Positions 8,828-36,476 of a stretch of 38,297 nt of DNA are shown piece after piece; position 1 is the first letter of the stretch; each line of letters starts with the position of its first letter. A program made the translations under genes and the position numbers. Source of the stretch: Bacteroidota bacterium (GTDB lineage Bacteria; Bacteroidota; Bacteroidia; B-17B0; Aurantibacillaceae); the NCBI GenBank assembly GCA_025963735.1, contig JAOQAF010000016.1, positions 1 to 38,297 of the forward strand, in the 5' to 3' direction. The notes beneath the pieces are model-generated. The model saw only the letters and a program-made list of their open reading frames with translations. It was not told the origin of the DNA and searched no databases.

Positions 8828-9148
8828 GGGCATCATAAAATTTCCAGTTAAAACTCTTTGGATGTTTAAAAGGAGTTCGAAAAAGACTATCGCACCACAG
8901 ACAGTAATTTTATATGCAGGTCTTTTGAGAAAGCTAGTGTGGGAGGCCTGGCTGTTCGAGGCCAAGACGGTTTCATATGGGCGAGTTCCACGACTCTGCT
9001 TAAACATCGAAAAGAGTTTAGAGAAATTTTATGAAGCCTTGAGTTTTCCTTTCTTTCTGGTCAAGCAAAAAGAAAGGAACAGTTTTTGTGCAAATTTGTT
9101 AATTCATTATTATTGTACCTGAAGTCTTAATTGAAAAAGACTTTTTAA
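8828..9148 (-). repeat. copy A of a dispersed MITE-like repeat; core 8828-9038 with ~40-bp terminal inverted repeats
   Basis: Reverse complement aligns by eye to 35308-35622; arms 8828-8870 (GGGCATCATAAAATTTCCAGTTAAAACTCTTTGGATGTTTAAA) and ~9000-9038 (TTAAACATCGAAAAGAGTTTAGAGAAATTTTATGAAGCC). Confidence 0.85.
9048..9077. repeat. hairpin CCTTTCTTTCTG...CAAAAAGAAAGG inside repeat copy A
   Basis: 12-bp arms with one mismatch; same hairpin at 35376-35401 in copy B. Confidence 0.6.
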
Positions 9149-33897: not shown

Positions 33898-35160
33898 ATG
33901 GCAATAGTAGAATTAAAAGTACCAAGTCCGGGAGAATCAATTACAGAAGTAGTGATAGCCCGCTGGATCAAAAATACAGGCGACGTGGTTGAAAAAGATG
34001 AGGTATTGGCTGAGATCGATTCCGACAAAGCTACTTTAACACTAAATGCTGAAGAAGCCGGTAAAATTGAGGTGCTTGCCGCCGAAGGTGATACTGTAAA
34101 GGTAGGACAGGTGGTTGTAAAAATTGACACCTCTGTGAAACCGGAAGCGAAAAAAGAAACGCCAAAAGCCGAAGTGAAGCAGGAAGCGAAAAAAGAAGAG
34201 TCTAAAAAAGAAAGCAAGCAGGAAGTTGCTGTAACCAAAGAATCGGCTTCCTACGCAACGGGAACGCCAAGTGTTGCAGCTGCTAAAATAATGGCTGAAA
34301 ATAATGTTACATCTAAGCAATTAAACGGAACGGGTAAAGCGGGCCGCATTACAAAACAAGATGTGCTTGCAGCTCTGTCTAACGGTTTGCCTTCTGCCGA
34401 AAAAGCTTTAAGTAACAGCTGGCAAGGTGGAAGAGATAAAGAAAGAATTAAAATGACCTCGCTTCGTAAAGTGGTGGCAAAGCGTCTTGTAGCGGTTAAA
34501 AATGAAACGGCCATGCTTACAACTTTTAATGAAGTTGATATGAGCGCCATTTACGAAATCCGCGCTAAGTATAAAGATAAATTTAAAGAAGTTCATGGAA
34601 GCAATGTTGGCTTCATGAGTTTTTTTACGAAAGCAGTGTGCGAAGCGTTATATCATTTTCCGGCAGTTAATGGAATGATAGACGGCGAAGAAATTGTGCA
34701 CAATAAATATTGCGACATTGGTATTGCCGTTAGCGCTCCGAAAGGTTTAATGGTTCCGGTATTGCGCAACGCAGAATTGATGAGCCTTGCAGAAATTGAA
34801 AAAGGAATAAAAGAACTTGCTTTAAAAGCCCGCGATGGTAAATTAACTATTCCTGAAATGGAAGGCGGAACCTTTACCATAACCAATGGAGGCGTTTTTG
34901 GAAGCATGATGAGTACCCCCATTATTAACCCGCCGCAAAGTGCTATTTTAGGAATGCACAATGTGGTTGAAAGACCTATGGCGATTAACGGACAGGTTGT
35001 TATACGCCCCATGATGTACGTTGCTTTAAGTTACGATCACCGTATTATCGATGGACGAGAAAGTGTTGGTTTCCTTGTCAAAGTAAAAGAGATGCTTGAA
35101 AACCCTACTAGAATTTTATTCGGAGGAAAATTACCGGAAGAAATTTTGTTGGGACTTTAA
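33898..35160 (+). CDS. sucB: dihydrolipoyl succinyltransferase (2-oxoglutarate dehydrogenase E2)
   Basis: Lipoyl domain [42 protein letters not shown]. Confidence 0.96.
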
Positions 35161-35307: not shown

Positions 35308-35622
35308 CAAAAAGTCTTTTCTAGTTCAGACTACAGATAGGACAATGAATTAACGATTTTCACAAAACCTGTTCCTTTCTTTTTGCTTGACCAAAAAGAA
35401 ACAAAAACTCAAGGCTTCATAAAATTTCTCTAAACTCTTTTTGATGTTTAAGCAGAGTCTTGGAACTCGCCCATATGAAACCGTCTTGGGCTCGAACAAC
35501 CAAGCCTCCCACACAAGCATTCTCAAAAGACCTGGGTATAAAATTACTGTCTATGGTGCGATAGTCTTTTTCGAACTCCCTTTAAACATCAAAAGAGTTT
35601 TAACCAGAAATTTTATGAGGCC
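35308..35622 (+). repeat. copy B of the dispersed MITE-like repeat; core 35413-35622 with ~40-bp terminal inverted repeats
   Basis: Arms 35413-35451 GGCTTCATAAAATTTCTCTAAACTCTTTTTGATGTTTAA and 35581-35622 (rc GGCCTCATAAAATTTCTGGTTAAAACTCTTTTGATGTTTAAA); aligned to rc of 8828-9148. Confidence 0.85.
35376..35401. repeat. hairpin TTTCTTTTTG-CTTGAC-CAAAAAGAAA inside repeat copy B
   Basis: Perfect 10-bp stem, 6-nt loop. Confidence 0.7.
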
Positions 35623-35640
35623 GCCTCTGCTTCGCGAAAT

Positions 35641-35795
35641 GAGGGCAAACATGTTGTACATGTTTGAGCCAGCGGATGCGTTAGACCTATCAAAAGAGGG
35701 CAAATGTTCTGAGAACATTTGAGCGAGCCGGCGCTTAGTGCCTTTTGGTTACTCTACCCACAAGCCGACTCAATTTTGCACTGCAAAATTGCCCT
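35641..35795. repeat. cluster of three covarying hairpins (AGGGCAA-N6-NGN/NNN-N6'-TTGAG)
   Basis: Perfect 9-bp stems with 3-nt loops: CAAACATGT/ACATGTTTG (35646-35666), CAAATGTTC/GAACATTTG (35701-35721), CAATTTTGC/GCAAAATTG (35771-35791, opposite orientation). Confidence 0.85.
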
Positions 35796-36020
35796 GCCAC
35801 AAAAGTGACAGAAAAAAATACCGCAAATTCAAACATTACTAATTCCTTCGGCAGAATTTTTTGGACATTTTTCAAATAATTTGTTTAATGGTGGGATGAC
35901 AGAATATTTGAGGGACGCACTATCTATAAAGTTTAATATAAACAATGATCCCGTAAATATTTAGGAACGAGATATCCCAAACTAAACTAACGATAATGCG
36001 TTGCTGTATGAATGCTATTA

Positions 36021-36476
36021 TTACTGACTTAAAACAGAAGTAGGTTTAAACACCATTCTGTAAATATATGAACCAAAGATATGCCTTCTTGCAAACCTCG
36101 CGACATTGGGAGAATTTACGAGTTTGTTATATGTATTTTTTGGCACTCCGAAGTATTCGTATTTGCTTCCGTCCTGAAAACTAATTTTTAGCGTTTGTCC
36201 TTTATATAAATAATCTTCAATGCCCGAACTAGTAGTAGTAATTGTATACTCCTCCAGAGTGGATGCATGGGTTTCGGGTGAGATACTCACCAGAAAATGG
36301 TAAGCCTCAATAATTTCCTTGCTTTTTATTTCCGCTTGCTCTTTTAGCGGTTCATTATCTGCAAATTTATCAGGGTGCCATTCTTTTATAAGATTTCTGT
36401 AAATAAGTTTTAATTCAGCAAGATTAGTTTCTTTTGTGGTGCCAAATAATTTTCCGTAATCTTTTATGCGTTTCAT
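36021..36476 (-). CDS. J-domain protein with C-terminal KTSC-like domain
   Basis: LKLIYRNLIKEWHPDKFAD (HPD) plus LKISFQDGSKYEYFGVPKNTYNKLVNSPNVARFARRHIFGSYIYRM. Confidence 0.8.
   Translation of the reverse strand: MKRIKDYGKLFGTTKETNLAELKLIYRNLIKEWHPDKFADNEPLKEQAEIKSKEIIEAYHFLVSISPETHASTLEEYTITTTSSGIEDYLYKGQTLKISFQDGSKYEYFGVPKNTYNKLVNSPNVARFARRHIFGSYIYRMVFKPTSVLSQ

Follow-up and report, generated by a model that had tools for sequence, protein, structure and literature searches.

Hairpins whose flanks are constant and whose fully paired stems differ raise the question of what is being kept at such a locus, a structured RNA, a mobile DNA element, or something else. Three of them lie close together in a contig from a Bacteroidota bacterium (Aurantibacillaceae; GenBank assembly GCA_025963735.1, contig JAOQAF010000016.1), of which a stretch of 38,297 nucleotides, the window, was analyzed. 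Here, we report the architecture, range, and mobility of the family to which they belong.

All three hairpins of the first-pass annotation were found where it had placed them, with 0 mismatches in the constant positions (Table 1). The flank pattern AGGGCAA-N15-TTGAG matches exactly at these three places and nowhere else in the window, and six times in the whole genome, where the reversed control pattern has 0 matches. With 3 mismatches allowed, the pattern is no commoner in the window than in shuffles (27 matches, 36 expected), and the finding therefore rests on the exact matches. The six inner base pairs that had been read as the stem do pair fully, but the true stem is 9 bp long (CAAN6/N6'TTG). 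Sequence downstream of TTGAG, first given as common to units 1 and 2, belongs to a conserved 3' tail that is partly common to all three and brings the unit to its full length of 43 nt; GATGCG (unit 1) and CGGCGC (unit 2) stand there in place of the family nGTGYG. Model R1, built partly from unit 1, matched units 1, 2, and 3 with 56.0, 43.7, and 52.6 bits, and their DNA folding z-scores were -3.7, -3.0, and -4.8, respectively.

Table 1. Positions of the three units and of neighboring features in the window
Feature	Coordinates	Strand	Description
Unit 1	35642..35684	+	AGGGCAA-ACATGT-TGT-ACATGT-TTGAGCC + tail AGCGGATGCGTTAG
Unit 2	35697..35739	+	AGGGCAA-ATGTTC-TGA-GAACAT-TTGAGCG + tail; outer pair 2:29 broken (G.G)
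Unit 3, inverted	35753..35795	-	AGGGCAA-TTTTGC-AGT-GCAAAA-TTGAGTC + tail GGCTTGTGGGTAGA
Host hairpin module GTCACTTTTG..CAAAAGTRAC	35743..35813	none	Interrupted by unit 3; also found in several relatives, either carrying units or free of them
Larger palindromic repeat, long imperfect hairpin	35361..35622	+	Arms 35413-35429/35606-35622 and 35439-35458/35575-35594
2-oxoacid dehydrogenase acyltransferase gene	33898-35160		Borders the repeat block on one side
DnaJ/KTSC-domain gene	36021-36476	-	Borders the repeat block on the other side

Unit 3 faces unit 2 tail to tail and is inserted in the loop of GTCACTTTTGacgcgCAAAAGTAAC, the host hairpin loop lying between GTCACTTTTG and CAAAAGTAAC. The region can be aligned with related copies of the host module. 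One of them (L071) carries 0 of the three units, with the sites of units 2 and 3 empty, and three others (L026, L130, and L046) have units at positions 2 and 3 with stems different from those of the window, position 2 being held by ACGGC..GAGCG units. Unit 1 is missing from L026, L130, and L071 and has no counterpart. Different but paired stems at the same sites would reflect either repeated use of a site or change of the stem in place.

The larger palindromic repeat has a second copy at 8829-9090 (minus strand), 93% identical and without units. The left end of this ~260-bp repeat, CTTTCTTTTTGCTTGACCAAAAAGAAACAAAAA.TCAAGGC, recurs widely, also in contig 51 of G081 at a spacing of ~380 bp, and the region was matched in 50 of 100 relatives. 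A 93-aa open reading frame spanning the repeat (35441-35722) had no Pfam family match, and phage and plasmid records contained nothing that matched the region.

The 43-nt family consensus consists of A[G/C]GG, a 9-bp stem (C...G), an NGT loop, and AGC[C/G]RGnnnGTGYGnnRG. In the aligned matches, conservation past TTGAG runs through CC, R, G, nnn, GTGYG, nn, and RG and then ends; one search pattern already contained the columns CC, G, and GTG, which are equally clear in units collected without them. The ends of the unit are placed to within 2-3 nt (left) and about 5 nt (right). Stem length is fixed and stem sequence free: a 21-nt core (9 bp plus 3 nt) was present in 162 of 165 units found with free core length, and the loop carries its G in 88% and its T in 90%. 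The first reading missed an outer helix of two base pairs (2:29 and 3:28) beyond a G/AG internal loop. Pair 2:29 is itself compensated, swapping G-C for C-G (A[G]GGC..GAGC[C] vs A[C]GGC..GAGC[G]; GC in 56 and CG in 4 of 62 distinct units), a statement that rests on the 62-unit analysis and raw contexts, many further A[C]GGC..GAGC[G] units being excluded as evidence since their search required a standard 2:29 pair.

A structure maintained under changing sequence, as first claimed, was borne out by pairing and covariation far above controls. Among 86 distinct 15-mers gathered regardless of pairing, 47 were perfect Watson-Crick hairpins; reassigning the 3' arms in 2000 shuffles gave 2.0 on average and never more than 7. 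The 127 full-pattern matches, also unselected for pairing, include 94 with six standard inner pairs and 28 with five. Of the pair cells in 62 distinct units, 97.9% are paired, compared with 74.5% in shuffles, and the covariation score is 0.619 (0.161 shuffled, 0.05-0.10 for slid structures); some of these units came from a search demanding near-perfect pairing, the 15-mer set being the unbiased test. Stem arms sought in the flanks, as expected of a stem templated from its target, scored 5.37 where chance gives 5.26 (5.17-5.32 in the null sets), a negligible difference.

The first-pass annotation had proposed a dispersed family with diversified stems and named what would speak against it: no further units, uncompensated stems in other copies, or an annotated insertion sequence or noncoding RNA at the locus. 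Model R1 found 8 units in the window's own genome and up to 75 in relatives (75 in G018, 35 in G019, and 29 in G009); the other two points were checked as far as possible and left the pattern standing. Another congener has 18 units, other congeners have none, and 4 of 17 sampled genera were positive with this model. The flank pattern occurred in 52 of 100 relatives, its inner arms mostly paired, and, among the matches listed, in numerous uncultured members of the Bacteroidota in the GTDB collection. With the strict pattern, the window's own genome was the sole positive among 398 genomes phylum-wide; the family is therefore narrow rather than pan-Bacteroidota, with a patchy distribution over a limited set of mostly uncultured members. 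Copy number overstates insertion events, because some copies ride as passengers of a larger repeat. Such a repeat in G018 (L135, L138, L165, L167, L201, and L229) has two fixed unit positions 110 bp apart, which differ in stem type, and was amplified as a whole. The few matches outside Bacteroidota among those listed (e.g., Bowmanella and Weissella) look like chance, with poor pairing or coding-like context. Viral contigs gave 34 pattern matches; those inspected were mostly unpaired and without the tail, and so were attributed to chance.

Filled and empty sites show, as judged from their aligned flanks, that the 43-mer is an insertion, i.e., mobile. A both-flank search for empty counterparts yielded 26 filled/empty pairs, whose sites differ by the 43-mer. 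In the cleanest pair (L152 vs L283, in one genome), flanks are 98% and 100% identical, the filled site being GTTTGCAGGTG-unit-GCAAAGGC (GCAAAGG flank) and the empty site GTTTGCAGGTG-AAAAACACCT-GCAAAGGC. Other pairs are L200/L162, L227, L193/L187, L143/L150, and L187/L047, and within the window's own genome L006/L007 were compared with L003/L004. Target loss is usually 0-10 nt, and up to about 20 nt in less certain alignments. Nine of 14 independent empty sites (those findable by BLAST, not a random sample) are strong hairpins (z <= -3, mononucleotide shuffles); seven of these were entered within the apical loop or at its edge, and two immediately 3' of the hairpin. Over 97 nonredundant sites, junction hairpin potential was marginally raised (mean, 5.90 vs 5.65; SD, 0.12), and stems of >= 9 were found at 8 junctions (2.6 expected; maximum, 7). 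The empty sites clearly show loop targeting; given the marginal result over the 97 junctions, it is a frequent preference and not a rule, and universality is not claimed.

The sites themselves are varied. L152, L227, and L283 belong to a repeat region with several GTTTGCAGGTGAAAAACACCTGCAAAGGCAT..GAACACCAACAACGGCTAAAAA copies, some of which have an inserted 43-mer. Two units abut tRNA gene 3' ends (tRNA-Arg at L315 and tRNA-Leu at L244), and at L313 a unit follows a tRNA-like 3' end where ARAGORN calls no tRNA. At L289:1235-1703, a unit is read in frame (RANSQWLFEP) within an open reading frame resembling the end of a reverse transcriptase (PF00078 match, E = 1.4e-5, below the curated cut-off); another unit lies 330 bp away.

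REP-like sequences are, in general, palindromes of 20-65 nt with many dispersed, mostly intergenic copies. The units answer to this description, being 43-nt palindromes with up to 75 copies per genome that lie mostly between genes (14 of 125 classified units are inside an open reading frame call), and the REP-like nature suspected at first is supported. Each unit is, we consider, probably a copy of a mobile DNA element that is palindromic, REP-like, and non-autonomous and measures about 43 nt. Such an element would be recognized by its shape as a folded single DNA strand, no letters being fixed outside the foot, the G-T of the loop, and the tail, and a trans-acting enzyme with a preference for exposed hairpin loops, e.g., on the lagging-strand template, would copy it. 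Stems would drift since pairing alone would matter, a mismatch in one arm later being matched in the other, either via selection at the next move or via hairpin-templated repair. The more specific proposal of a shape-recognized mobile hairpin that replaces the loops of other hairpins, through a single-strand enzyme of some kind or transposase-free template switching, with copying that re-pairs the stems, is possible, though we would not bet on it.

A link to a RAYT or IS200/IS605 gene, which the first reading had suggested, found no support. These genomes commonly have Y1 transposase genes, yet no unit stands beside any Y1/RAYT gene examined: the flanks of 50 Y1 loci (145 kb) contained 0 units at E < 0.01, and RAYT/IS200 matches (PF01797, in 46 and in 32 genomes; NF047646, in 10) were not flanked by units in the loci examined. 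There was no Y1 match in 7 of 32 unit-bearing genomes, and 6 of these 7 also had no match to the NCBIfam RAYT model; the Y1/RAYT-free genomes include G105 (same records as G006), which is 100% complete and has 10 units. Recurring neighbor genes were all from common families of the phylum and stood at varied distances. Tentatively, and at somewhat less than even confidence, we name a Y1/HUH-type single-strand transposase as the most likely mobilizer, with classical RAYTs only a part of that choice.

Next in rank, and open to more doubt, is spread without a transposase. Replication or repair would stall at a hairpin, or SbcCD-type nucleases would open its tip, and the end would copy a similar hairpin elsewhere and resume in the 3' arm. 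The lack of a linked transposase agrees with this, target losses of 0-10 nt and junctions in the loop or 3' arm suit template switching, and hairpin-templated copying would explain perfect compensation too. However, the constant ends and the conserved unpaired 3' tail are not predicted by template switching, under which unrelated hairpins would be taken up equally often.

A classical REP whose mobilizer is a RAYT (TnpA-REP) of subclass 2.6, that of the Bacteroidota, is an unlikely reading. The size, hairpin, dispersal, and genome-dominant stem types of the units are all REP/REPIN-like, as are the tail-to-tail pairs (units 2 and 3; L026), but, besides the unit-free Y1 flanks and the six unit-bearing genomes without any Y1 or RAYT match, the units have no GTAG or GTGG foot, and the RAYT-like genes of these genomes are flanked by their own, different inverted repeats (e.g., CCGCAGGGTTACAAACCCTGCGG), which agrees with what PMC6006769 gives for subclass 2.6. 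The RAYT-like HUH genes at L113, L122, L124, L126, and L127 lie between such repeats (e.g., CCGCAGGGTTACAAACCCTGCGG and CACCACACGAAAGGATTCGTGCGG), which are distinct from the unit and are candidate REPs of Bacteroidota RAYTs.

Among described systems, the CGTC-tagged REPs (among them Neisseria dRS3 and Rickettsia RPE-4/RPE-6; PMC3733652) resemble the units in their short hairpin of 8-9 bp, the heterogeneity of its stem, a short tail that stays unpaired, and dispersal, sometimes inside larger palindromes, and roughly also in fixed A/T pairs near the foot. In contrast, the CGTC, TGTC, or CCTC tag is absent from the unit alignment, where the foot is A[GC]GG; the units' loop has 3 nt (NGT) rather than 4-5; and their tail is a 14-nt motif of RGnnnGTGYGnnRG type instead of CCA. 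The CGTC criterion is A-T at pairs 1-2 of an 8-9 bp stem, and the 9-bp stem of the units has an invariant C-G followed by A-T at pairs 2-3. REPs are commoner between convergent than divergent genes (PMC3733652), as are the units here (37 convergent and 12 divergent contexts, with 62 codirectional). Since the CGTC REPs likewise have no dedicated transposase and REPs are inserted within palindromes in a few species (PMC3733652), both main oddities of the units have precedent; tag, tail, loop, and range differ. With GTAG REPs and REPINs of RAYT systems (PMC2817692, PMC3116915, and PMC6006769), the units share dispersed intergenic palindromes, inverted dimers, and genome-dominant stem types, but not the GT[AG]G guide at the 5' foot or a RAYT gene flanked by units. 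The repeats of TnpA-REP subclass 2.6, as PMC6006769 presents them, are from the same phylum and have atypical, non-GTAG structures with copies elsewhere in the genome; unlike these, the units do not flank the 2.6-like genes of the present genomes, which have other inverted repeats at their flanks. Subterminal hairpins of IS200/IS605 elements, which serve as single-strand recognition signals, are similarly small; no unit was found at the ends of IS200-like elements examined, and target loss differs from their seamless insertion.

As far as our searches of open-access full text reach, this family of REP-like mobile palindromes is undescribed; new here are its scaffold, the compensation at its foot, and the evidence from filled and empty sites for insertion into the loops of hairpins. 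REPs are common, and the family bears on how they spread when they have no cognate transposase and on how their stems diversify and yet remain paired. Its compensated stems are numerous, natural, and set on an unchanging scaffold, some of its filled/empty pairs are recent and have nearly identical flanks, and some unit-bearing genomes that have no Y1 genes are near-complete; together, these make shape recognition and the targeting of hairpin loops directly testable.

The first reading had also considered a structured RNA, and a cis-regulatory leader, terminator, or small RNA could account for the strong covariation, for the leader-like positions of some units (e.g., L058, L169, and L328-L330), and for the terminator-like patterns in the area (3 vs 0.8 expected). 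An RNA helix tolerates G-U pairs, and selection on RNA from one strand should favor them. G-T mismatches, however, were as frequent as A-C mismatches (11:10 over 80 distinct stems, single and double mismatches counted), orientation relative to codirectional neighbor genes was even (33:29), Rfam families gave no match, contexts were unrelated, and no recurring neighbor gene suggested a common function. Because mismatch types are equal and strand bias toward genes is absent, the constraint is best read as acting on DNA, not RNA, and a structured RNA is very improbable; strong covariation by itself does not make one, as this family shows. Integron attC-like recombination sites also have variable self-complementary stems between conserved ends, but the fixed 21-nt core, the absence of RYYYAAC/GTTRRRY core sites from the unit alignment, and dispersed single copies with no cassette arrays seen (integrase linkage being judged from recurring neighbors) leave them virtually no chance.

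At L058, L154, L169, L184, L199, and L328-L330, units occupy one similar site, ..ATATGGC-unit-GAAAGCCAT.., a short distance upstream of start codons. Among the genes that follow, one begins MKGIILAGGSG and is sugar nucleotidyltransferase-like, and the site is possibly a leader that retains the unit.
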